NCBI GenBank assembly: GCA_003246455.1
Contig: QKAF01000063.1
Span: forward strand, 1 to 34,157
DNA from: Bacteroidota bacterium
Lineage (GTDB): Bacteria; Bacteroidota; Ignavibacteria; SZUA-365
Direction: 5' to 3'
Length of the DNA stretch: 34,157 nucleotides
Position 1 is the first letter of the stretch. Each line of letters starts with the position of its first letter. The position numbers and the translations under genes were made by a program. Below the pieces are notes generated by a model, which ran no database searches, had not been told where the DNA came from, and was given only the letters and a program-made list of their open reading frames with translations. Below, piece by piece: positions 13,198 to 25,072 of this stretch.

Positions 13198-15888
13198 CTA
13201 ATCCACCACGACCATCTTTTTCACTTCACGCTGCGCTCCGGATCGGAGCTCATAGAAATAGGCACCGGGTTTCATTCCCGCAGCGCTGACAGCGACCTGG
13301 TGATTCCCGGCCTCGCGATATTCGTTCACCACGGTACGAAGAAGTTTTCCTCGGATGTCGTAGATACGGACTGAGACCTGTCCGGCCGCTTCAAGGGTAA
13401 AGGGAACGACCGCGCTTCCCGCAGCCGTACCCGCGTCCGCCGCGACAGGATTCGGGTAGTTCTGTCCGAGCGCAAACATGAGCGGCTTGCTTCGGGCGGC
13501 ATCCTCGACCGAGGTGACAATGGCAGACGACATCCACATACCTCGGCCGTGGGTCCCTGCGTAAAGAACGTCGTCCTCGGTGATTTTCAAATCGTCGATA
13601 ACCACATTCGGAAGCCCCTCATCGTACGGGACCCAATTCCCACCCCCGTCGGTGCTGAGGTAGACACCGATGTCGGTTCCGGCAAACACAACCTCCGGAT
13701 CCTTCTCCCAGATTGCGATGGCGCCCACCGGAATGTCCGGCAGCGATGTCTCGGGCGTCGCCCCCTTCATGAAGGTCCAGCTCGAGCCGCCGTCCGTCGT
13801 TTTATACACGCCGCTTGTCGGACTGAAGCCCGCGGTTCCGACATACGCGATATCCCCGTTCGTCGGGTGCACCGCCACTTCCCCCAGGAAGAGATTCGGA
13901 ATTCCGGCATCGATGCGCGTCCATGTGACGCTGGCGGGATCGGCCATGGCGTTGGTCGTGCGGAATGCGAGCGAGGAATATCCCGTCACCCCGTAGAGAA
14001 CGTTCGGATTCGTTTTACAGAGCGCCAGGTGCTGGAACTGGGAGAGCGAACTGCCCGAGCCGGTCAGATCGTCGGAGATGGCCGTCCAGCTGCCGGCACC
14101 ATCGCTGGTTCGATACACTTTATTGCCGCCGATAAACAGCGTCTTGGCATCTGTCGGATGCATGATAAACGGCGTCACGAAGCTGAACATGTAGTTCTGG
14201 TTCGCGTCCTGAAGCACGAGCCCGGACTGCGCGGCCTTGAATGTACTGCCGCCATTCGTGGTTTTCCCGATCCGCCCGTATTGGTAGGCGACGTAGAACA
14301 CTTCCGGATCATCATAGTCGAAGGCGACCCAGCCGCCGTCCCCTCCCCAGTTGATCAGCTGCCGCCATTCGACGGTCGACGCGTCGCCGATATTGTTTCG
14401 CCTGTCCTGCGTCCCGCCCATGACCCGTGTCGGTGTGTTCCGATCGTAGTTGATGGAGTAGAACTGCATCGTGGCGAGTCCTACGCCGACCTCCTCCACG
14501 ACCATGGTCGACCGCCTGCAGTCGGTCGTCCGAAATACGCCGCCGTCGCTCGCGATAAGCATGATATCGGGATTCTGCGGACTGTAATCCACGTAGTGCA
14601 TATCGACCCACGCTCCTGCCAGCCCCGTCTGTGTCGTGACCTGGCGGAATGTCGTTCCCCCATCCGTACTGCGCCACGTGTTGATGCCTCCGAAGAACAC
14701 GATGTTCGAATCCGTCGGATGACAGCTGATGTAGAGGTTATAATCGCCCTGTCCCCGAAGGACTTCCCGCATGTTCGACTGTGCGGATGAGGGGAGTTTG
14801 ACCCAGCTCTCACCGTAGTTGGTCGACTTGAAGATGCCGAGAAAATCCTGCTTATCCGAAGGCGAATTCTTCGGTGCACGCTGCATCGCGCAAAACATGG
14901 TGCCGGGGACGGTCGGAGACACTTCCACGACCATGCGGCCGATGGAATCCGCGGCAGGCAGTCCCTCGGTGAACTTCGTGAAGCTGAATCGATTTCCCCG
15001 CTCATCCGAGTAATAGATGCCGTTGCTGCTGCGGCCGTTATAATATCCGAATCCGACGATGACACGATCCGGGTTCGTCTCGTCGATGTTGACGGTGCAG
15101 GCAGGTCCGTTCAGCACGGCCTTCCATTCTCCGCCACCGTCCGTACTCCGCATGAGCGCGCCGGTCCCGCTGCCGTAGGTCGTCGCCGCGAAGATCAGGT
15201 TTGGATCCGTGGGATGAACGGTGATGTAGTTCACGGCGAGGTCGAGGTCGTTGATGACTCCCTCCATGATATTGGTCCACGTCTCACCGCCGTCGGTGCT
15301 CTTGTAGATGCCGTTTCCATGCACGGCGTCCCAGTTGTTGCTTCCCTCACCGGTCCCGGCATAGATGATGTCCGGATTGACCGGATCGAAGGCAATGTGC
15401 CCGATGGACAGGGTCGGAAGGTGATCCGATTTCGCCACCCAGGTGCTGCCGCCGTCCGTTGATTTGAAGATTCCGCCCGAGGCCGATCCGGCGAACGCGA
15501 TATTCCCGTTCGTCGGGTGGAAACGCACGACGCGGATACGACCCGCGATATTATTGGGTCCGACGAAGGTCCAGTGGTTCGCCATGCCCTCTTTCCGCAT
15601 CGCAAGCATCCGCTTCTGATCCTCTTTCATCAGGGTCGCTTCGCGGAGTCCCTCCGAAATCCGCTTCGTCGAATTGAAAATGCGGGGGATGATGTACCAG
15701 TCAAGGTTCGGCTGATCGCTGCTTCGACCCTCCCGTACGTCCGCGTTTTTTTCCGCGCGGAGTTTCATTTTTTCTCCATGCTGCCGTGACTCCATCGACC
15801 GTTCACCGGGAACCGTCACGTGAAAAAAGAATGCGGCCGCCGTCATGGAGAGCAAAATGGTGGAAATGGTAGTCAGTCGTCGGTTCAT
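13198..15888 (-). CDS. T9SS-secreted BNR/sortilin-like beta-propeller protein
   Basis: 896 residues from ATG at 15888, preceded by GGAGG seven bases away. A longer reading to 15978 would put the signal sequence inside the protein and is rejected. An N-terminal hydrophobic signal (residues 4-22) is followed by a linker. From about residue 105 there are at least ten BNR/Asp-box repeats of the form STDGGSTW, for example FKSTDGGSTW, YKSTDGGETW, WRSTDGGTTF and YLSTDGGGNW, alternating with phrases such as HPTDPNLIFAAT. These build one or two VPS10/sortilin-like propellers. The last 90 residues are a T9SS sorting domain (FALGQNYPNP to EVKKMVVVD). Such proteins are cell-surface or released; ligand or glycan binding is possible, and hydrolase activity cannot be claimed. 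It diverges from the AMMECR1 gene. Confidence 0.9.
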   Translation of the reverse strand: MNRRLTTISTILLSMTAAAFFFHVTVPGERSMESRQHGEKMKLRAEKNADVREGRSSDQPNLDWYIIPRIFNSTKRISEGLREATLMKEDQKRMLAMRKEGMANHWTFVGPNNIAGRIRVVRFHPTNGNIAFAGSASGGIFKSTDGGSTWVAKSDHLPTLSIGHIAFDPVNPDIIYAGTGEGSNNWDAVHGNGIYKSTDGGETWTNIMEGVINDLDLAVNYITVHPTDPNLIFAATTYGSGTGALMRSTDGGGEWKAVLNGPACTVNIDETNPDRVIVGFGYYNGRSSNGIYYSDERGNRFSFTKFTEGLPAADSIGRMVVEVSPTVPGTMFCAMQRAPKNSPSDKQDFLGIFKSTNYGESWVKLPSSAQSNMREVLRGQGDYNLYISCHPTDSNIVFFGGINTWRSTDGGTTFRQVTTQTGLAGAWVDMHYVDYSPQNPDIMLIASDGGVFRTTDCRRSTMVVEEVGVGLATMQFYSINYDRNTPTRVMGGTQDRRNNIGDASTVEWRQLINWGGDGGWVAFDYDDPEVFYVAYQYGRIGKTTNGGSTFKAAQSGLVLQDANQNYMFSFVTPFIMHPTDAKTLFIGGNKVYRTSDGAGSWTAISDDLTGSGSSLSQFQHLALCKTNPNVLYGVTGYSSLAFRTTNAMADPASVTWTRIDAGIPNLFLGEVAVHPTNGDIAYVGTAGFSPTSGVYKTTDGGSSWTFMKGATPETSLPDIPVGAIAIWEKDPEVVFAGTDIGVYLSTDGGGNWVPYDEGLPNVVIDDLKITEDDVLYAGTHGRGMWMSSAIVTSVEDAARSKPLMFALGQNYPNPVAADAGTAAGSAVVPFTLEAAGQVSVRIYDIRGKLLRTVVNEYREAGNHQVAVSAAGMKPGAYFYELRSGAQREVKKMVVVD

Positions 15889-15895
15889 CACGAAT

Positions 15896-15900
15896 CCTCC
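15896..15900 (-). promoter_or_regulatory. Ribosome-binding site fixing the start of the BNR protein
   Basis: GGAGG on the minus strand, seven bases before the ATG at 15888, decides between this start and an upstream in-frame alternative at 15978. Confidence 0.8.
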
Positions 15901-16011
15901 ATGGTGCACTGCGTTTGCGAAAAGAATGACTCCGTGTTCGCAATTGCGTATATTCTGAGAAAAGCTGTTAGCGGTCAATCAGGCCAGGCAAATTCCGATT
16001 TCGCCTGATTT

Positions 16012-16061: not shown

Positions 16062-16622
16062 ATGCTCCCGCTTCCGGACCACGATACCGAAATGTCGCTG
16101 CTGCGGATCGCGCGCGATGCGATATTCGCGCTGCTCGATCACGCACCGTACGACCCTCCTGCCGTGGAGAGCCTCCCGGCGACCAGCGGGGTGTTCGTGA
16201 CCCTGTACGTATCCGGAGCACTGCGCGGGTGCATCGGCTTCATTGAGCTGTCGGGGGGATTGCTTCCGACGCTGGCGGAAGCCGCGCGCCGGGCCGCATC
16301 ATCCGACCCGCGCTTCATGCCGCTCCGCAAAGATGAACTGCCGAACTGCCGCATTGAAATCACATTGCTCGGCCCGCAGGAAGCGATTTCCCATCCTGAC
16401 GATTTCATTCTCGGGCAGCATGGTCTGGTGCTGGAGCTTCATGGACGGCGCGGGCTCCTCCTCCCGCAGGTCCCGGTGGAGCGCGGGTGGAGCAAGGAAG
16501 AGTTTCTGTCGGCGCTCTGTCAGAAAGCCCGCGTACCCGACCGGAGCTGGCTGGAGACAGAGGCCGAACTGTTTCGATTCGAGGGCCGTGTCCTCCGGGA
16601 AGAACCGCAGGCCACCGCTTGA
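16062..16622 (+). CDS. AMMECR1-domain protein (AmmeMemoRadiSam system protein A type)
   Basis: 186 residues forming a complete AMMECR1 domain. The hallmark LRGCIG is at 54-59, preceded by GVFVTLYVSG and followed by RRAASSDPRFMPLRKDEL and IEITLLGP; LLLPQVPVERGW lies near residue 135. The family is conserved in bacteria, archaea and eukaryotes, and its biochemical activity is unknown; a base-modification or redox role has been proposed. A MEMO-family gene follows 33 bases downstream on the same strand, the usual pairing. The radical-SAM third member is not in this window. The ATG at 16062 has a weak GGAA upstream; a second ATG at codon 11 is a possible alternative. Confidence 0.92.
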   Translation: MLPLPDHDTEMSLLRIARDAIFALLDHAPYDPPAVESLPATSGVFVTLYVSGALRGCIGFIELSGGLLPTLAEAARRAASSDPRFMPLRKDELPNCRIEITLLGPQEAISHPDDFILGQHGLVLELHGRRGLLLPQVPVERGWSKEEFLSALCQKARVPDRSWLETEAELFRFEGRVLREEPQATA

Positions 16623-16655
16623 AACCGATACGCTGATCACCGCGAGGAATACGAG

Positions 16656-17492
16656 ATGAAGGCAATGCTGATACGTCCGCCTGCTGTGAGCGGTCTTTTT
16701 TATCCGGCGGATCCGACGCTGTTGAGCATGACGATCGATCGCCTGCTGGAAGCAGCCCCGGAGGCGGAATCCTCGCTCCGACCGCTCGCCCTGGTCAGTC
16801 CGCATGCCGGATATGCGTTTTCGGGACCTACCGCCGCCGCCGCGTACGCCACGCTTCGGAATCGCAGTTTCCGTACCGCCGTGATCGTCTCGCCCAGTCA
16901 CAGAGAATATTTCAACGGGATCTCCGTCTATGAGGGCGATGCTTATCGCACCCCCCTCGGACTGATCAACGTCGACATCGAACTGCGCGAGAGGCTGCTC
17001 GCCTACAAGGGAATCATCACATCTTCGCAGCTCGGACACCGCGACGAGCATGCAATCGAGGTGCAGCTGCCTTTCATCCAGCGTATCAATCCTGACGCGA
17101 AAATCCTCCCTATCGTCATGGGAGATCAGCGCAGTGAATACTGTCTGCTGCTGGCACGTGCACTGGCGGAAATTCTCTCCCCGGACAACGTCCTCATCGC
17201 CAGCAGCGATCTTTCCCATTTCCATGAACAGGGCGCTGCGGAGATCCGTGACAGGATCGTTGCCGAGGATATTCGTTCACTGAGTCCGATGCGGCTGCTC
17301 GATGACCTGAGCACGCACAAGGGCGAAGCTTGCGGCGGTGGGCCGATCGCAGCCGTGATGACAGCCGCGCAGACTCTCGGTGCCGATCGTGTCACCGTGC
17401 TGCATCAGTGCACCTCCGGCGATGTCACGGGCGAGAAGCAGCGGGTCGTCGGATACCTCTCCGCGGCGTTCACTTCCAGCACGGGTTCCTGA
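16656..17492 (+). CDS. MEMO-family protein (AmmeMemoRadiSam system protein B type)
   Basis: 278 residues, the usual length for a MEMO1-like protein. RPPAVSGLFYP at the N-terminus is typical. The putative metal/redox pocket seen in human MEMO is conserved: His50 in SPHAGY, His82 in SPSHREY, His188 in SSDLSHFH and Cys226 in GEACGGGP. DEHAIEVQLPF (130-140) is another family signature. The fold is related to extradiol dioxygenases, but enzymatic activity in bacteria is unproven. GAGGA lies about ten bases before the ATG. Together with AMMECR1 upstream and the DUF2520 gene four bases downstream it forms a compact three-gene unit. Confidence 0.93.
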   Translation: MKAMLIRPPAVSGLFYPADPTLLSMTIDRLLEAAPEAESSLRPLALVSPHAGYAFSGPTAAAAYATLRNRSFRTAVIVSPSHREYFNGISVYEGDAYRTPLGLINVDIELRERLLAYKGIITSSQLGHRDEHAIEVQLPFIQRINPDAKILPIVMGDQRSEYCLLLARALAEILSPDNVLIASSDLSHFHEQGAAEIRDRIVAEDIRSLSPMRLLDDLSTHKGEACGGGPIAAVMTAAQTLGADRVTVLHQCTSGDVTGEKQRVVGYLSAAFTSSTGS

Positions 17493-17496
17493 GTCC

Positions 17497-18324
17497 ATGG
17501 CCTCGCAGCTTCCCTCCATCGCATTGTTCGGCGCAGGACGCGTCGGCATGAACCTCCTGCGTCATTGCGCCCGGAACGGCGTTCCTGTCCAGACGGTCGT
17601 GGAACGGGACGTGTCAAAGCACGACCGCATCCGGGATATTCACCCGCATGCGGCGCTGTCTTCCTCGCTCCCCGAACGGGTTCCAGCGACCGTGCGCTAC
17701 TGCATCCTGGCGCTTCCCGATCAATCGCTCGCAGAAACGGCGGATCAGCTGCGGAATGAAACTGCACTCGAGCCGGACCTGGTCGTCTTTCACTGTTCCG
17801 GGACGCTCACGTCGACGATCCTCTCACCGCTCGCCTCGAAAGTCACCCGCATCGGCAGCATCCATCCCATGCAGAGTTTCCCTGACGACGACCTCCCCGC
17901 TGCGGCACTCGCGGGCATCGGCTGCGGGATCGAGGGAGATGACGCCTTCACGGAGGAAGCAGAAAGATTCGCGGAAATAATGCAGTGGCGGCCGCTGCGG
18001 ATAGAAGCAGGAAAGAAGGCCCTGTATCATGCGGCGAACGTCTTCGCGGGAAACTTCCCCACCGTGCTCGCCTCCCTGGCTGAGACCCTACTCCGCGCAT
18101 CTGCCGCCGCAGATTCCCCGGAGCGGCTGACGCACCTCCTCCCCATGATGAAATCCGTGGTCGATCGCGTTGCGGGCACCGAACCTGTACGCGCCCTTAC
18201 CGGGCCGGCGGCACGGGGCGATCACGACGCGATTCGCCAGCACCTCGAAGCGCTCGGCGCCCTCGATCCTCCCCTTCGTGACGTGTATGAAGCCCTCACG
18301 CGGGCGGCAATGAACCTGAAATAG
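17497..18324 (+). CDS. Rossmann-like and DUF2520 domain protein (NADP-dependent oxidoreductase fold)
   Basis: 275 residues from ATG at 17497, four bases after the MEMO stop. The open frame extends upstream to 17380, but that part overlaps MEMO and lacks homology. The N-terminal Rossmann domain opens with IALFGAGRVGMNLL, a GxGxxG dinucleotide motif, and includes VVFHCSGTLTS and the conserved IGSIHPMQSF. The C-terminal helical DUF2520 domain (about 150-275) includes KKALYHAANVFAGNFPTVL. The architecture resembles 6-phosphogluconate-dehydrogenase-like and F420/NADP reductase-like proteins. The substrate is unknown. The 3' end overlaps the convergent glycosyltransferase gene by 29 bases. Confidence 0.88.
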   Translation: MASQLPSIALFGAGRVGMNLLRHCARNGVPVQTVVERDVSKHDRIRDIHPHAALSSSLPERVPATVRYCILALPDQSLAETADQLRNETALEPDLVVFHCSGTLTSTILSPLASKVTRIGSIHPMQSFPDDDLPAAALAGIGCGIEGDDAFTEEAERFAEIMQWRPLRIEAGKKALYHAANVFAGNFPTVLASLAETLLRASAAADSPERLTHLLPMMKSVVDRVAGTEPVRALTGPAARGDHDAIRQHLEALGALDPPLRDVYEALTRAAMNLK

Positions 18325-19483
18325 CCTGCAGAAGCCCCGTTCGCTCACGCTCCCACCGGAATCCTGCCGCAGCCTCCCTGCATGCCGCCTTCGCGCGGGA
18401 ATACCGGTCTCCGTCATCGATCAATGTACGTACCGCTCTCACCAGCATATCAGGTTCAGAGGGATCGACCGCGATTCCGGCGCCGGTATCACGCAGTAAT
18501 GCGCCGATCTCGGGAAAATCACTGCCCACAACAGGAACCCCTGCCGCGAGATACTCGAACAATTTGTTCGGCAGGCTCAGGTAGTAGCTCTGACCGAGAT
18601 TTTCTATGAGACAGAATCCGAGATCTGCCGATGCGGTCCATGCCGGAAGTTCCGCCGATGGCACAGCCGGTAAAACCGTCACACGGTCAGACACGCCCGC
18701 GAATCGCGCTGCCGCCTCGATATCCCCGCGCAGATCGCCCTCCCCCAGAAAAACGAGGTGACAGTCGGTGAGCGCGGGCATTGCATTGACGAGGAGAATG
18801 GCGCCGCGGCCGCGCTGCAATCCCCCCTGTGAGAGCAGCACTCGCAGATTCGGACGTATCCCGACGGCTTCCCGCAGTCTGTCTGATGGTGCCCCTTCCG
18901 GCCAGTCCGGGACATTGCGCACCACGCGTACGTCGGCGTAGCGTTTTCTCAGTATTTCGGCGATCGAATCATTGACCGTGAAGATGGTGGCGGCGCTCCG
19001 GCCGTAGCGTTTTTCCACGCCTGTCCAGAACCGCTGCATCAGTGCACGGTCCTGCAGGGCAGCGACGGAGGAGTACAGCTCGCGAGCATCATACATGAGC
19101 GGACATTTCAGCTTGCGCGCCGCCCGGGACGCTGCGGGAAGTGTGTAGAGATCGGAGGCGATAACCAGGTCGCAGCCGAGTTCGCGGATCGCCGCCGATG
19201 CCTGCCGCCAGAATCTCGGCAGCGCCGAACGGAGCGATCCCTGCCGCGGAAACGGGATAACCCGGTATGACTCGTTTTCTGACGCAGTCAGCGGTTTCAA
19301 GACCCGATCGTCCCCATTGTGATTCACGGTCTCTGCCGCGTCTGCGGAATGATCTGGCGCGTCCGTAAGCTGGAGGATGTACACCTCGGCCATTTCCGCG
19401 GCAGCTGCGGCGAAACGACGAAGACGCGAATCCCGCGTCACATCCCCTGCGAAAGTGAAGCAGATGTGCGTCCGGTGGGACAT
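18296..19483 (-). CDS. Glycosyltransferase family 4 (GT-B fold)
   Basis: 395 residues. The N-terminus HICFTFAGDVTRDSRLRRFA is a typical GT4 acceptor-domain opening. The middle has the linker segment LRVLLSQGGLQRGRG and VFLGEGDLR, and the C-terminal half has the nucleotide-sugar motif FEYLAAGVPVVGSDFPEIG near residues 305-325, with the E-x7-E pattern of retaining GT4 enzymes. It is cytoplasmic or membrane-associated and adds a sugar from an NDP- or GDP-sugar; donor and acceptor are unknown. It is the last gene of a minus-strand unit, six bases after a PorV/PorQ-family gene. By context its product may decorate surface polysaccharide (the anchor for T9SS cargo) or exported proteins; this is inference. 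Confidence 0.87.
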   Translation of the reverse strand: MSHRTHICFTFAGDVTRDSRLRRFAAAAAEMAEVYILQLTDAPDHSADAAETVNHNGDDRVLKPLTASENESYRVIPFPRQGSLRSALPRFWRQASAAIRELGCDLVIASDLYTLPAASRAARKLKCPLMYDARELYSSVAALQDRALMQRFWTGVEKRYGRSAATIFTVNDSIAEILRKRYADVRVVRNVPDWPEGAPSDRLREAVGIRPNLRVLLSQGGLQRGRGAILLVNAMPALTDCHLVFLGEGDLRGDIEAAARFAGVSDRVTVLPAVPSAELPAWTASADLGFCLIENLGQSYYLSLPNKLFEYLAAGVPVVGSDFPEIGALLRDTGAGIAVDPSEPDMLVRAVRTLIDDGDRYSRAKAACREAAAGFRWERERTGLLQAISGSLPPA

Positions 19484-19489
19484 GTATGA

Positions 19490-20425
19490 TCAGAGAGTGA
19501 TGGAAAGAGCGATCGTGTGCGCGTTGCCGAACGCCTCGGAGAAGGGGGTAAATGCGTAATCGAAACGCAGGGAGCTGTACGTCGCGCCGCCGCCGAAGGA
19601 TACCCCGTTGTTGTCGTAGCCGGACCGGTACCCGAGCCGCAGGAACACCATGCCAAGATAATTGAACTCGGCGCCGAGATTCACGTGCGTGGTGCTCTCC
19701 TCGAGCAAGGTGAGACCTTCAGCCGCGAAGTTCAGACCGCCTTTCACGGATTCGATCGGTATCCGGTATCCCGCACCGTAGCGGAGCAGACTCGGCAGCT
19801 TCGTCGAGACCGTGCGGAGTTCCGTCATGCTCCCGAGGTTGGCAAGAGTGACGCCCGTGCTGAGATTCGCCAGATCACCCTCGGAAAAGGGGCGCACCGA
19901 AACACCGAAGTCGAACGCATAGCCGCCTGCTTCATCGACGTAGATTTTCTCGTAGACGTATTTTGCGGTCACACCGAAATCGACGCCGTCAGCAAGAGCG
20001 AATGCAGCAGTGATACCGCCCGCGAAATTTCTCGTATCCGCCTCGCCGAGTGCTTCACCCGGACGGTCGCGGACTTCGATTCCGCCGACGGAAGTCAGTC
20101 CCATGTGCAGCCCGAAACTCCAGCCATTGAGCGGGAGACTGACACCGACGAATTCCGTGCTGATATCTTCCACCCACTCGTTGTGCATGATCGTCACCGA
20201 GGCGTCCGCATCGTCCGCGATCAGCGAGGGATTGTAGTACATCGCGCTTCCCATGTCGGCATTCGCAACACCCGCATCACCCATACCCATGGTGCGTGCC
20301 CCGACACCGATCTTGAGAAACGAAAGGCCGCTTCCTCCGGACTGTGCCTGCAGAACAGGCCCCCATGCGGCGAGCAGGAAGATGATGAAAAGCGCGGCGA
20401 TGAACTGCGGATGCGTCCGTCTCAT
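19490..20425 (-). CDS. PorV/PorQ-family outer-membrane beta-barrel protein (second copy)
   Basis: 311 residues. The signal peptide (residues 1-27, ending VLQA) is followed by SGLSFLKIGVGARTMGMGDA and AMYYNPS, the hallmark opening of the PorV/PorQ (UPF0164-like) family, itself related to FadL-type barrels. The rest alternates polar and aromatic beta-strands and ends in AHTIALSITL, compatible with an outer-membrane C-terminal strand. In Bacteroidota, PorV carries T9SS cargo from translocon to attachment complex, and PorQ shares its fold. The start is backed by GGGAG eight bases upstream. It lies 18 bases after the first PorV/PorQ-family gene. Which of the two (if either) is the general PorV cannot be told from this window. 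Confidence 0.87.
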   Translation of the reverse strand: MRRTHPQFIAALFIIFLLAAWGPVLQAQSGGSGLSFLKIGVGARTMGMGDAGVANADMGSAMYYNPSLIADDADASVTIMHNEWVEDISTEFVGVSLPLNGWSFGLHMGLTSVGGIEVRDRPGEALGEADTRNFAGGITAAFALADGVDFGVTAKYVYEKIYVDEAGGYAFDFGVSVRPFSEGDLANLSTGVTLANLGSMTELRTVSTKLPSLLRYGAGYRIPIESVKGGLNFAAEGLTLLEESTTHVNLGAEFNYLGMVFLRLGYRSGYDNNGVSFGGGATYSSLRFDYAFTPFSEAFGNAHTIALSITL

Positions 20426-20443
20426 GCGTGAACTCCCTGGTGG

Positions 20444-21436
20444 TTAGAACTGCAAAGCGAAAGAAAGCACATGTGTCGGCGTGGGTGCAACGGGTTCGAG
20501 GATGAAGGCATAGTGGATAACCGGCTGCATCTGTGCGATCGGCTGACTGATCGAAAATCCGAACGTAGGTCGGGGATCTATTCCCGCGTCCGAAAAGTCT
20601 ATTCTTTCGACGCCACCGCGGAGCCAGATATTCTCCACGATAGGTATTTCAACACCGAGACGCGCCAGGTACACATCTTCCACGGCCTCGACATCGACTG
20701 CGGCGATGCCCGATTCGTTGGGCAGCGTATATCCAACACCCAGACGATAGATGCGCGCAAACGGATCCTCGGTGGAGTTGCCGTTCTGCGCTCCGTAGAG
20801 TTCGGAGGTGTCCCACTTGTACTTCGTCAGCAGTTCCTGGGCAACCAGACCGATCCGCAGGGACGGCGAAACCGTGTACAGGATACCGATGTCAAGCCCG
20901 AAGCCGGAAGAAGTCACGCCCTCGTAAAGTCCCGCGTAGTAGAACTTGGCGTTGAAGCCGGCCGCCAGCCGGTCCGAAAACCGGGTTCCGAAGTTCACCG
21001 CGAACTGGTTTTCGAACACGCTCAGGAGATCCGTTTTGAAACCGTCGCTGTCGTATCCCTGGATATTTGCATCGCCCGCGTTGATCCATGAAATGGACAC
21101 GCCGGAGATGGACTGCACCCCGGGTTCATCCGCATAGATGTTCGCTTCCTTGTTATGGATGCGGATCATCTGCGTATAGCTGACCTGGTTGAATTTCCGG
21201 TCGAGTGACAGGATACCGTAGCTGCCGTGCAGGACATGGCCTTCCTGGAAAGCGCTGAGCGCGGGATTATAGTACGTGGATATCGTCCCGGTGTTCACCG
21301 TCGTCAGCGCATTCCCCATGCCCTGTCCGCGGGCGCCGAAACCCATACGGGTGAATGCTCCGGCGGTACCGTTCTGGGCCTGCGTCGGCATGGCGCAGAG
21401 AAGCGCGGCGAATGCAAATAGGATGATGTTCTTCAT
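20444..21436 (-). CDS. PorV/PorQ-family outer-membrane beta-barrel protein (first copy)
   Basis: 330 residues from ATG at 21436 (MKNIILFAFAALL). An upstream ATG at 21469 would overlap the preceding gene and bury the signal peptide, so it is not used. Signal peptide cleavage is likely after Ala20 (TQA/QNG). The family signature appears as AFTRMGFGARGQGMGNA and STYYNPALSAF. The remainder is beta-rich and ends FALQF, as in outer-membrane barrels. It is paralogous to the next gene at the N-terminus, though the two differ considerably along their length. It follows an FlgD-CTD cargo protein by 19 bases, an arrangement that suggests a dedicated partner; this is inference. Confidence 0.87.
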   Translation of the reverse strand: MKNIILFAFAALLCAMPTQAQNGTAGAFTRMGFGARGQGMGNALTTVNTGTISTYYNPALSAFQEGHVLHGSYGILSLDRKFNQVSYTQMIRIHNKEANIYADEPGVQSISGVSISWINAGDANIQGYDSDGFKTDLLSVFENQFAVNFGTRFSDRLAAGFNAKFYYAGLYEGVTSSGFGLDIGILYTVSPSLRIGLVAQELLTKYKWDTSELYGAQNGNSTEDPFARIYRLGVGYTLPNESGIAAVDVEAVEDVYLARLGVEIPIVENIWLRGGVERIDFSDAGIDPRPTFGFSISQPIAQMQPVIHYAFILEPVAPTPTHVLSFALQF

Positions 21437-21455
21437 GATGCTTCCATGCTCCCGT

Positions 21456-23024
21456 TTACTGCAGCGCAATGGCTTTTGTCCACACGGGATCGTTATCGCC
21501 GATGGTCACTTGAATATAGTAGACGCCGTTCGCCACCTGTTTGCCATTGTCGTCGCGGCCGTCCCACACCTCGTCCTGCTCGCTGTTGAGCTGACGGCTG
21601 ACATTGCTGAGCAGTACCCGCACAGGCATCATGGCGAAGTCGTAGATACGGATGGAGATCGACCCGGTGTTGTCCGTCCGGTAGTGAATCCGCAGCACCT
21701 CATCGTCCGGGGCGAAGGGATTCGGATACGCGTACGCTTCCGCCGGGCTGGATATCTGCCGGGCCGCGCCGAGAATCGTCCAGTACTGGCCGAAGAAATA
21801 TTCGGACCCGTCTTCCGTCCGCATCAGTCCGTCGGAATTGGCCACGAACACATTGTCGCCGATAACCGCCGCGGCATAGCATTGTTCGCTCGCGGCGACG
21901 CGCCGCGATGACGCATCGACAAAGCGGGACGTCCCGATCCAGCTGTTTCCGCCATCGTCGGAGCGGTAGATGCCCGAATTGGTGGGAACATAGACGACGT
22001 CATCCTTGAAACCGAAGTTGTGCGCGAATTCGCCTCGCAGCGTCGTGCGCCAGGTGCGCCCCATATCCGTGGTCACGCTGACGGCACGGTATTCAACCGG
22101 ATTCAGCGCATTGATCGTCGCGGCCCAGACATGCGTCACGCCCCCGATCACGTTATGTCCGATTGCGACGACAAAATTGCCTGATATGGGTTCATTCTGA
22201 TTGTTGAACGAGCACTTCCGCCAGGAGACGCCGCCGTCTGTCGAGAGATTGATCCCGCCGGCAGTGCCGACCCACAAGGTGTCATCATTCATCGCATGGA
22301 CGGAGAATACACGGTGGTTCAGGCTTTCGACGAGTCCGAGATCCGGGCGATTGACCGGGGAGAGATCGAAGTCGAGACTGTCGTTCGGGGAGATCGAATC
22401 GATCTGGTCTGGCGGAAGCACGACGGGAAGGAACGTCTGCCCGCCATCCGTGGAACTGCGCAGTCCCCCGGCGAAACTGGCGATAAACACCGCCTTGCCT
22501 GTCACGGCGATATCATAAGTGATATTGTTGATGTCCGTGGTTACGGCGAGTGCCTTGATCGTGTTGTTTCCGTACGCGATATCATAGACAGACATGTCCG
22601 TGGACTCTTTCGGCTGCGGTACGAGGGACCAGGTGCGGCCGAAATCCGTCGACACGGCGAGGCCAAGCCCTTTCGCGAGCGATCCCTGGTCGGTGTCCTC
22701 CGATCCGGCAAGCGAAGCCCACATCACTCCCCCGTGCCCTTCGAGCGCGGCGATGTCTTCGAAGTCGAACGGAGCCGCGTCACCGAAATGCTTCCAAGTG
22801 CTACCGAGATCAGGCGTCAGATCGATGCCCTTCCCTCCTCCCATCCACAGCGTATCGCCGCGGACGAACAGGTCGACCGCACTGTTGGACAGCGGCCGAT
22901 CGTCAGTCGTCTCGTGTGACTTCGAGAGCGAGAAGGTAAGCGGAATTTCCTGTGCGTTCGTGGCGGACGCGGTGAGAATCAACACCGCTGCCAGACATCC
23001 CTTGAGACTTATTCTGCTGCGCAT
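21456..23024 (-). CDS. Secreted beta-propeller (BNR-like) protein with FlgD-like/T9SS C-terminal domain
   Basis: 522 residues. The signal peptide (1-24, ending ATNA) is followed by propeller-like blades with Asp-box motifs: TPDLGSTW, STDFGRTW, SSTDGGQTF, STDGGVSW, TTDMGRTW, SDDGGNSW. The last 90 residues form a FlgD-like Ig/sorting domain: YPNPFAPDDEVLRIHY, VWDGRDDNGKQVANGVYYIQV, ending TKAIALQ. The protein is therefore expected outside the inner membrane and probably exported by T9SS. Its ATG overlaps the TGA of the upstream lipoprotein gene by one base (TGATG), indicating translational coupling. Two PorV/PorQ-family genes follow. The role is unknown. Confidence 0.88.
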   Translation of the reverse strand: MRSRISLKGCLAAVLILTASATNAQEIPLTFSLSKSHETTDDRPLSNSAVDLFVRGDTLWMGGGKGIDLTPDLGSTWKHFGDAAPFDFEDIAALEGHGGVMWASLAGSEDTDQGSLAKGLGLAVSTDFGRTWSLVPQPKESTDMSVYDIAYGNNTIKALAVTTDINNITYDIAVTGKAVFIASFAGGLRSSTDGGQTFLPVVLPPDQIDSISPNDSLDFDLSPVNRPDLGLVESLNHRVFSVHAMNDDTLWVGTAGGINLSTDGGVSWRKCSFNNQNEPISGNFVVAIGHNVIGGVTHVWAATINALNPVEYRAVSVTTDMGRTWRTTLRGEFAHNFGFKDDVVYVPTNSGIYRSDDGGNSWIGTSRFVDASSRRVAASEQCYAAAVIGDNVFVANSDGLMRTEDGSEYFFGQYWTILGAARQISSPAEAYAYPNPFAPDDEVLRIHYRTDNTGSISIRIYDFAMMPVRVLLSNVSRQLNSEQDEVWDGRDDNGKQVANGVYYIQVTIGDNDPVWTKAIALQ

Positions 23025-23854
23025 CAGCGGACAATCAGTTTGTGAATGACGACGTTGCTGGAAAGATTGGAATAATCCAATGCGCGAAATTCGAAGCGAT
23101 ATTCTCCCTTGGGTGTGTCGGGCGGCATTTCCACCTTCGTCGAGTATATGCTGTCGCCGGCGGCGACGTCACCGTGCAGGGGCGAGCCGTCATCGTAGAG
23201 GCGGAAGGGATTGCCGTTGGCGGGACGACCGTCGGGGAGGAACGAATTGAAATAGGCGGTTTTGATATCCGCAGGCCCGCTTTCATCAACCACTTTCGCG
23301 GTCAGCGTCAGGACCTGCGTCTGCAGCTGCAGGGTCACCGTATCGGGGGCGTTCACCTCCACGATCACCGGGGGTTTGCTACCATAGAAGACACGGAACT
23401 TGGAAACGCCGTTGTTGAGCTCTGTCCCCCATTCATCCGTGCCGAACACATCGACACGGTAGTCCCCCACGTCTCCGCGCTTGCGATCGAAGGCGATGTC
23501 GGCAACCCACTCGAGCGGGTTCGCGGACTGTAGAAGGTCTCCGCTCGCGAGCACCGAGGATTTCCCGTCGAGGCGGACCTCGTAGCGCAGAGTTCCGACG
23601 GCTCCGCCCGCACCGAGCGGCTCCGAAACGTTCACCGCCACATGGATCGGCACAGTCACCGGGTCGTCGGCGGTTTTGTCTTTCCCCGGCTGTACGTTGA
23701 GGGTATCCGTGTCGACAACGTATGGGGATAACTGCATGTCAGTCAACAGGATATGGCTGTACTTTGGATTGGAATCTACGACAGCCGAATCATCGCTGCA
23801 TCCCACCGCAATGACTACGGCGAGGAGCAGGAAAGGAAGATTTTTTTGAATCAT
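23024..23854 (-). CDS. Putative lipoprotein with Ig-like folds
   Basis: 276 residues from ATG at 23854. The longer frame to 23902 would displace the lipoprotein signal. The signal LLLAVVIAVGC has a lipobox with Cys19. After it come two beta-sandwich-like segments. The second contains YDDGSPLHGDVAAGDSIYST (about 221-240), a short acidic motif I associate from memory with Ig-like modules of secreted proteins, and then a strand-rich end (GEYRFEFRALDYSNL). No enzymatic motif is visible. It heads the five-gene minus-strand operon and is coupled by a one-base overlap to the propeller protein, so the two probably act together at the cell surface or in the periplasm. Confidence 0.75.
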   Translation of the reverse strand: MIQKNLPFLLLAVVIAVGCSDDSAVVDSNPKYSHILLTDMQLSPYVVDTDTLNVQPGKDKTADDPVTVPIHVAVNVSEPLGAGGAVGTLRYEVRLDGKSSVLASGDLLQSANPLEWVADIAFDRKRGDVGDYRVDVFGTDEWGTELNNGVSKFRVFYGSKPPVIVEVNAPDTVTLQLQTQVLTLTAKVVDESGPADIKTAYFNSFLPDGRPANGNPFRLYDDGSPLHGDVAAGDSIYSTKVEMPPDTPKGEYRFEFRALDYSNLSSNVVIHKLIVR

Positions 23855-24010: not shown

Positions 24011-25045
24011 TCACAGCAGGTGAATCGGCGCGGGCGACAGACAGACGACAAACATCGCGTAGGAGAACCAACCCAGCATCCTCCGACGGGAACCAAGACC
24101 TGCAAATTCAGGAACTTCGGGGTGTTTTACCTTGATGAAAATCGTGATCAGCAGGGCCCAAAACAGCCATCCTGGCCAGAATATTGCGCTGAAGTGAGGA
24201 ACGGATTCCATGATTTTAAACCCGAGATCTGTCAGCCCCACAAGATCCAGCACGGCCGGCAGCACGCCCATTCCACCGAAAAACCCGAGAACGGCCACGG
24301 TGATGCGGCCGACGAGGTGCTGTCTGCTGCCGAACATCGCGTAAGTCACGTGTCCCCCGTCGAGCTGACCGGCGGGCAGCATGTTGAGGGCTGTGACGAG
24401 AAGTCCGAACCAGCCGGTGATCAGCAGCGGATAATGGTACATCTCGGTCATGGGCGGAATGTACGCGCCGGGTTTGCTGAAGATCTGCTCCAGCAGCGAG
24501 TACAGAAACGGCGATCCAAACGCCAGCGTCAGCCCGGGTTCCGCACCGGGAGTGGTCCCGGTCGCAAAGTCGAAATCGGGGTGGATTCCGAGGAGAAAAT
24601 CATGTCCCGGCAGTGTCATGAATCCGATGATCAGTACAATGATGCTCGCCACAAAGCCCGCGATCGGTCCCGCGATACCGATATCGAAAAGCGCCGACCG
24701 GTGCGGAATGACCTGCTTGGTGCGAATCACCGCCCCGAGGGTTCCAAAATTGATGAACATGGGAATCGGCGGCAGGGGGATGTAATAGGGCAGCGTCGTG
24801 CGAACCCCATGTCTCCTCGCAGCAAAATAATGACCGAATTCATGGCAGCTGAGAATGAACAGCGCGGATATGCTGTACGGCAGACCGACGGAAAAGTCCG
24901 CGAGATCGAACACCCCCTGCCAGAGCATCCCGGCAATCGTGGTCGTCACGAAGGTGATGACGAATAGTGCAATATGCTTCGCGACCTGGAGGGGCGCCAG
25001 CTCGGGTTCGCGTGTGACGGTGGTATACGTGGATTCGGCTTCCAT
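24011..25045 (-). CDS. Site-2 protease family (M50) membrane zinc metalloprotease
   Basis: 344 residues with several membrane segments. The zinc motif is HEFGH (His68, Glu69, His72), inside a transmembrane helix. The second metal-ligand motif NMLPAGQLDGGH (221-232, Asp229) is close to the family's NxxPxxxLDGG. No PDZ domain is seen between them, unlike RseP. Such enzymes cut substrates within the membrane. The substrate here is unknown, and no anti-sigma factor gene is adjacent. The start is taken as ATG at 25045; GTG at 25051 (two codons more) is possible, and neither has a strong ribosome-binding site. It is the last gene of the eight-gene minus-strand unit, 27 bases after the HAD phosphatase. 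Confidence 0.9.
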   Translation of the reverse strand: MEAESTYTTVTREPELAPLQVAKHIALFVITFVTTTIAGMLWQGVFDLADFSVGLPYSISALFILSCHEFGHYFAARRHGVRTTLPYYIPLPPIPMFINFGTLGAVIRTKQVIPHRSALFDIGIAGPIAGFVASIIVLIIGFMTLPGHDFLLGIHPDFDFATGTTPGAEPGLTLAFGSPFLYSLLEQIFSKPGAYIPPMTEMYHYPLLITGWFGLLVTALNMLPAGQLDGGHVTYAMFGSRQHLVGRITVAVLGFFGGMGVLPAVLDLVGLTDLGFKIMESVPHFSAIFWPGWLFWALLITIFIKVKHPEVPEFAGLGSRRRMLGWFSYAMFVVCLSPAPIHLL

Positions 25046-25072
25046 TGGCACTGTATTATTGAACGGGCGGAA

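Follow-up and report, generated by a model that had tools for sequence, protein, structure and literature searches.

A conserved Bacteroidota operon joining a sorting-domain propeller protein to two PorV/PorQ-superfamily barrels, and its possible role as a tethered type IX surface complex

What could an operon contribute to type IX secretion that encodes a lipoprotein, a protein with a sorting domain (CTD), two barrels of the PorV/PorQ superfamily, and a glycosyltransferase? In the usual description of the type IX secretion system (T9SS), PorV is the sole shuttle for type A CTDs, and there is a single attachment complex, comprising PorU, PorV, PorZ, and PorQ. The locus lies in the window analyzed here, that is, the whole 34,157-nucleotide stretch of QKAF01000063.1 (positions 1-34,157), from Bacteroidota bacterium (GCA_003246455.1; Ignavibacteria, SZUA-365). 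A sequence-only reading of this DNA had proposed that five minus-strand genes (18296-23854) could form a self-contained export-and-decorate system with private PorV paralogues.

Gene calls in the window bore out all five genes, along with their coordinates and the gaps between them (-1, 19, 18, and 6 bases in the order lipoprotein, propeller protein, barrel b, barrel a, and GT4). Internal terminators, which had been named as a feature that would split the unit, were sought in every intergenic gap of the five-gene operon, and no terminator-like site was found. The first gene (23024-23854, minus strand) encodes a 276-aa lipoprotein with two Ig/Fn3-like domains and a C-terminal choice-of-anchor-X repeat (26 bits against NF041940, cut-off 25). 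Its lipobox ends in AVGC, followed by SDDS, and the Cys is invariant in 36 homologues, while its AF2 model (pLDDT 91) returned generic fold matches of the Ig/Fn3 type. The second gene (21456-23024, minus strand) encodes a 522-aa protein with a signal peptide, a single beta-propeller, and a CTD. Barrel b (20444-21436, minus strand) and barrel a (19490-20425, minus strand) are outer-membrane proteins of the PorV/PorQ superfamily; the start of barrel b was placed at the ATG at 21436, the longest ORF opening at a TTG at 21469. The last gene (18296-19483, minus strand) is firmly predicted from its group 1 and group 4 domains to encode a GT4-fold glycosyltransferase, with Pfam scores well above cut-off (PF13692, 67.7 bits; PF00534, 60.6 bits; PF13439, 38.5 bits).

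Several other genes surround the operon. Upstream is an M50-family membrane metalloprotease gene (24011-25051, minus strand; PF02163, 71 bits), which is a common neighbor, being present at 50/68 loci of the class plus several distant ones, and whose membership in the module is uncertain. On the plus strand, AMMECR1, Memo, and DUF2520/Rossmann genes (16062-18324) converge on the GT4 gene in a block that also recurs in close relatives. Additionally, a 926-aa protein with a sortilin/BNR propeller and a type A CTD that exceeds its cut-off (13198-15978, minus strand) is encoded nearby, as it is near the module in several relatives.

The operon is an ancient, class-wide core module that recurs across deep branches of the Bacteroidota. 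Specifically, the propeller gene was found in 84 of 119 relatives, with one match each except for one genome with two, and a profile search recovered it from 167 of 395 genomes of the phylum, nearly always in single copy. Among six named relatives, two were labelled Ignavibacteria and one Ignavibacteriae. In gene maps of 74 loci of the class, with denominators being the loci where contig ends allow judgement, the lipoprotein gene was directly upstream of the propeller gene at 68 of 71 loci, barrel b directly followed the propeller gene at 71 of 72, and barrel a was in place at 69 of 70. The order lipoprotein, propeller, barrel b, and barrel a was intact at 65 of 68 assessable loci, conservation that far exceeds chance expectation and that supports a single co-directional unit. 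The claim that relatives would share the same five-gene order held for these first four genes and failed for the GT4 gene. In the class, this gene immediately follows barrel a at no more than 23 of the 65 loci that could be assessed, so that it is a variable member rather than the fifth member of the core. Most of 40 more distant loci also had the four-gene order, although some were rearranged or, in several distant families, had no barrel a; at three loci (families f31 and f46) barrel b directly precedes the lipoprotein gene. At one locus (L121) a second propeller-like ORF of 235 aa, a partial duplicate or broken copy, sits just before the propeller gene.

The propeller protein resembles PorZ in predicted fold. 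Its AF2 model (mean pLDDT 91) consists of one propeller and a C-terminal sandwich, and Gln25, directly after the likely signal-peptide cleavage site, is invariant. The propeller domain (residues about 46-425; 21750-22889, minus strand) was delimited by AF2 strands, BNR/Asp-box matches, and profile matches to the glycan-sensor propellers 3v9f and 4a2l. PorZ (5m11) was the top PDB fold match to the model (E 1.6e-13), the TM-score being low (0.40/0.29) on account of the second propeller in PorZ, which is set at an angle to the first. The second-best matches were the glycan-sensor domains of BT4663/BT4673, which are PorZ's own nearest fold relatives (PMC5121618). By curated criteria (260 bits; two propellers and a CTD) the protein is not PorZ: it scored 27.5 bits against the PorZ model NF052228, with the CTD alone aligned, and its sequence similarity to the PorZ of the same genome is weak.

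The CTD (residues about 429-522; 21459-21740, minus strand) is type-A-like, with scores just or somewhat below the cut-offs of the type A models (TIGR04183, 22.1 bits, cut-off 23; FlgD_ig, 22.9 of 27; Por_Secre_tail, 16.5 of 27) and 15.4 of 27 against the type B model (CHU_C, PF13585). Its profile matched the CTD structure of PorU (6za2, residues 1057-1139, E 0.001), and it is better conserved than the propeller (mean pairwise identity 0.51 vs 0.43). It has a W-D hairpin resembling that of the PorU and PorZ CTDs. We considered this hairpin as a mark of uncleaved CTDs and retained it as a hint only, given that it was in 15 of 20 cargo CTDs of the window's genome picked by the PorU model and almost absent from 38 picked by PF18962, two samples that were picked by different models and do not amount to an unbiased census. 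Two length classes can apparently be distinguished among the CTDs of this genome (L283-L342), one of 78 residues and a longer one in which, as in PorU and PorZ, a W-D hairpin precedes a G-x-Y motif.

The suggested membership in the PorV/PorQ superfamily held for both barrels, with different degrees of divergence. Barrel a scored 152 bits against the family model NF033709 (cut-off 90). Barrel b scored 58.9 bits (E 6e-16), below that cut-off, and is best described as a divergent relative, which its placement inside the superfamily tree would support. Against more specific models the two barrels scored far lower than required, with 63 and 21.5 bits for PorV (NF033710, cut-off 250), 65.8 and 38.5 bits for PorQ (NF033711, cut-off 220), and, for barrels a and b, 49 and 37 for PorV2 (NF052325, cut-off 325); the PorP-family model TIGR03519 gave 28.6 of 90.6. 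A tree of 138 proteins from the superfamily, built by a quick search with SH-aLRT support and no bootstrap, resolved PorV (99, with one extra PorV-like row) and PorQ (100) as separate groups. Barrel b sequences (52 rows) formed a clade with support of 100, and 41 barrel-a rows grouped at 98 with one unlinked row from genome G122; two long barrel-a branches meet in this tree, such that details within the groups are unsure. The window's two barrels nest within these respective groups and outside the PorV and PorQ clades; they are neither PorV nor PorQ and represent deep clades of their own. The unlinked row (L273, G122:C1:930127-930954) is possibly a relocated barrel a, as the operon of that genome has none. 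The PorV2-like protein of the window's genome groups beside barrel b, a placement that rests on one long branch.

These placements revise the view of the barrels as private PorV paralogues, since they are ancient phylum-wide lineages and not local PorV duplicates. A position outside the PorV and PorQ clades that bind cargo had been named in advance as an outcome that would refute the proposed module, and this is the position that both take, so that cargo-binding barrels of the PorV type are not supported; superfamily membership and a CTD protein as genomic partner nonetheless still fit a binding role.

The link to type IX secretion was examined through the remainder of the genome and across the phylum. 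The window's genome encodes at least 150 type A CTD proteins, and PorU (C47:13636-16944) with adjoining PorV, PorQ (C16), and PorZ (C85; 354 bits against NF052228) are each present over the curated cut-off; SprA is also present, split between contigs. The operon is therefore neither self-contained, as it had been called, nor the local attachment complex, and the idea that it is the lineage's own sequence-displaced PorZ/PorQ/PorV set is ruled out by the true PorU, PorV, PorQ, and PorZ elsewhere. Of the 167 genomes carrying the propeller gene, 147 have PorU and the remaining 20 all have SprA, leaving none without both; these counts are of genomes and not of independent events. The propeller protein thus relies on T9SS genes or, at the least, is always accompanied by them, in agreement with its initial description as a T9SS-type cargo.

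The 20 PorU-negative carriers, which have lost the enzyme that ordinarily anchors exported proteins, also have no PorZ, which was found in all nine PorU-positive genomes searched alongside. All 20 kept PorV, and 5-58 CTD matches remain in them. By gene content, these genomes (G165, G180, G201, G209, G232, G253, G274, G277, G280, G336, G343, G373, G376, G388, G395, G403, G411, G431, G439, and G454) are predicted to have a sortase-less type IX system. In the PorU-negative genomes of family f39 that were read, PorU no longer adjoins PorV, and CTD conservation of the propeller protein in this family is 0.555 without PorU vs 0.556 with it. Since the module is kept where PorU and PorZ were lost, it requires neither of them. 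Two further ideas were discarded, namely that the module is independent of all type IX parts, given SprA and PorV in 20/20 PorU-negative carriers, and that the propeller protein is SprA's sole client in these genomes, given the CTD matches that persist.

The window's genome has five superfamily barrels whose genes lie immediately downstream of a CTD gene: PorV (downstream of PorU), barrel b (downstream of the propeller gene), and three further PorV-superfamily barrels (L047, C2:24340; L050, C13:14315; L051, C2:1641). This recurrence points to a common arrangement whereby CTD proteins are encoded with an outer-membrane partner of their own, akin to type B substrates, which are encoded with SprF-like shuttles, dedicated shuttles having been proven for these (PMC12618676, PMC9143113). 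One could accordingly picture barrels a and b as dedicated, private shuttles to which SprA hands the propeller protein, in the manner of SprF-like proteins and type B substrates, with the product then released or decorated with sugar. The substrate-then-barrel order and a CTD that falls under the type A cut-offs are in keeping with this idea, which we nevertheless find unlikely: every type A CTD studied so far uses PorV (PMC12618676), a canonical PorV is present in the window's genome and in 20/20 of the PorU-less genomes tested, and two barrels per single substrate would be left unexplained.

The sugar link of the module, first drawn from the GT4 gene, was borne out more broadly. In 52 sampled loci, chosen in favor of readable co-directional neighbors and reported as raw frequencies, the first gene after the barrels encoded a group 1/4 glycosyltransferase (25), FemAB/GNAT (10), PMT (7), or a thioredoxin-like protein (6), such that about 42 were glycan-related and represented at least four enzyme families. 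The second and third genes included flippases, glycosyltransferases, FemAB, deacetylases, and GT9. GT4 is thus replaced at other loci by other glycan genes (glycosyltransferases, FemAB, PMT, a Wzx flippase, or a deacetylase), and glycan genes recur beside the barrels in distant lineages as well; glycosyltransferase, flippase, and deacetylase genes have an identical order in f19, from the window's class, and f39, from another group.

This repeated linkage to differing glycan biosynthesis genes could mean that the barrels themselves export or assemble polysaccharide at the outer membrane, acting on a glycan or glycolipid, and that the CTD merely brings the propeller to the surface. The rates of the two barrels also covary (0.63) above those of either barrel with the CTD (-0.03 and 0.17). 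Yet superfamily members of known role bind CTD proteins, no feature resembling Wza or LptD was detected, and some loci have no glycan gene beside the barrels, with thioredoxin-like genes, for example, in their place, rendering this role improbable. Rate covariation was also considered as proof of partnership and was not relied on: signals between the barrels and between lipoprotein and propeller were present, but that between propeller and M50 was equally high. Finally, the notion that PorV carries and PorU processes the propeller protein as ordinary cargo, with the barrels as unrelated co-transcribed transporters, would suit a genome with at least 150 CTD proteins, many with propellers and one within the window (13198-15978), but is very improbable and fits the conservation poorly, as the four-gene order is kept class-wide and over much of the phylum, usual cargoes are multicopy and patchy, and the module persists where PorU was lost.

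Alongside what is observed here, that is, the gene order and its conservation, the fold, the clade placements, the co-occurrence with SprA or PorU, the persistence without PorU and PorZ, and the glycan neighbors, we propose that the operon encodes a sortase-independent, tethered propeller complex, PorZ:PorQ-like, that acts on surface polysaccharide. We place the probability of this reading at slightly under one half (about 0.45). The complex would depend on type IX secretion and share the architecture of PorZ:PorQ within the attachment complex, yet be distinct from that complex. Equipped with a signal peptide, the propeller protein would cross the outer membrane through SprA by way of its CTD, which it would retain, and barrel b would tether it at the surface. 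Barrel a would be another component of this assembly, with the two-Ig-domain lipoprotein as a putative accessory partner. The propeller, in turn, would bind the surface polysaccharide made by the neighboring glycan genes and help to present or assemble it. In PorZ itself the CTD is likewise retained; this protein binds A-LPS, and PorQ serves as its anchor (PMC5562754, PMC8545088). We favor the tethered complex because PorZ is the best fold match and barrel b follows the CTD gene as PorV follows PorU, because all 167 carriers have PorU or SprA, and because the module and its conserved CTD persist without PorU and PorZ and glycan genes follow the barrels.

Some observations temper the tethered-complex proposal. 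The hairpin is also in apparently ordinary cargo CTDs of the window's genome, which counts against a PorZ-like reading, as do the low TM-score to PorZ and the weak sequence similarity to the genome's own PorZ, and the CTD and barrel b covary weakly in rate (partial 0.17). Moreover, PorU-less genomes retain ordinary type A cargoes as well, so that CTD conservation there is not special to the propeller protein. A broader formulation, which we regard as doubtful though conceivable, is that the operon represents a second, sortase-independent type IX surface complex with two barrel lineages and a polysaccharide partner of its own, of an age equal to that of PorU-PorV-PorZ-PorQ, and able to outlive the attachment complex.

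No description of the operon was found in open-access papers on T9SS PorV/PorQ paralogues, Ignavibacteria, Rhodothermus/Salinibacter, PorZ/PorQ, and exopolysaccharide clusters, in line with the initial impression that the grouping is undescribed. A conserved, near-single-copy operon and two deep barrel lineages imply that SprA serves another outer-membrane complex in less studied classes of the Bacteroidota. The 20 genomes without PorU and PorZ are, moreover, natural deletion mutants, in which one can ask what purpose SprA has without the sortase.

Among known systems, the module is most readily compared with PorZ:PorQ of Porphyromonas gingivalis, in which a protein with propellers and a CTD is likewise paired with a PorV/PorQ-superfamily barrel and linked to surface polysaccharide. 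Unlike PorZ:PorQ, the module has one propeller, where PorZ has two, as well as a second barrel, a lipoprotein, and operon linkage; it also falls under the curated PorZ and PorQ cut-offs, coexists with true PorZ and PorQ encoded elsewhere, and persists without PorU and PorZ. The PorU-PorV pair is similar in that a CTD gene, with a CTD related to that of the module, is followed by a PorV-superfamily barrel, whereas the module has no peptidase domain and its barrels lie in separate clades. PorV2 (NF052325), a putative type IX sorting protein, is likewise an extra PorV/PorQ-superfamily paralogue recognized by NCBI, but barrels a and b are far below its cut-off. SprB-SprF and other pairs of type B CTD and PorP-like proteins share with the module a substrate gene directly followed by that of its outer-membrane partner, while differing from it in that the module fails both the type B CTD and the PorP-family models.
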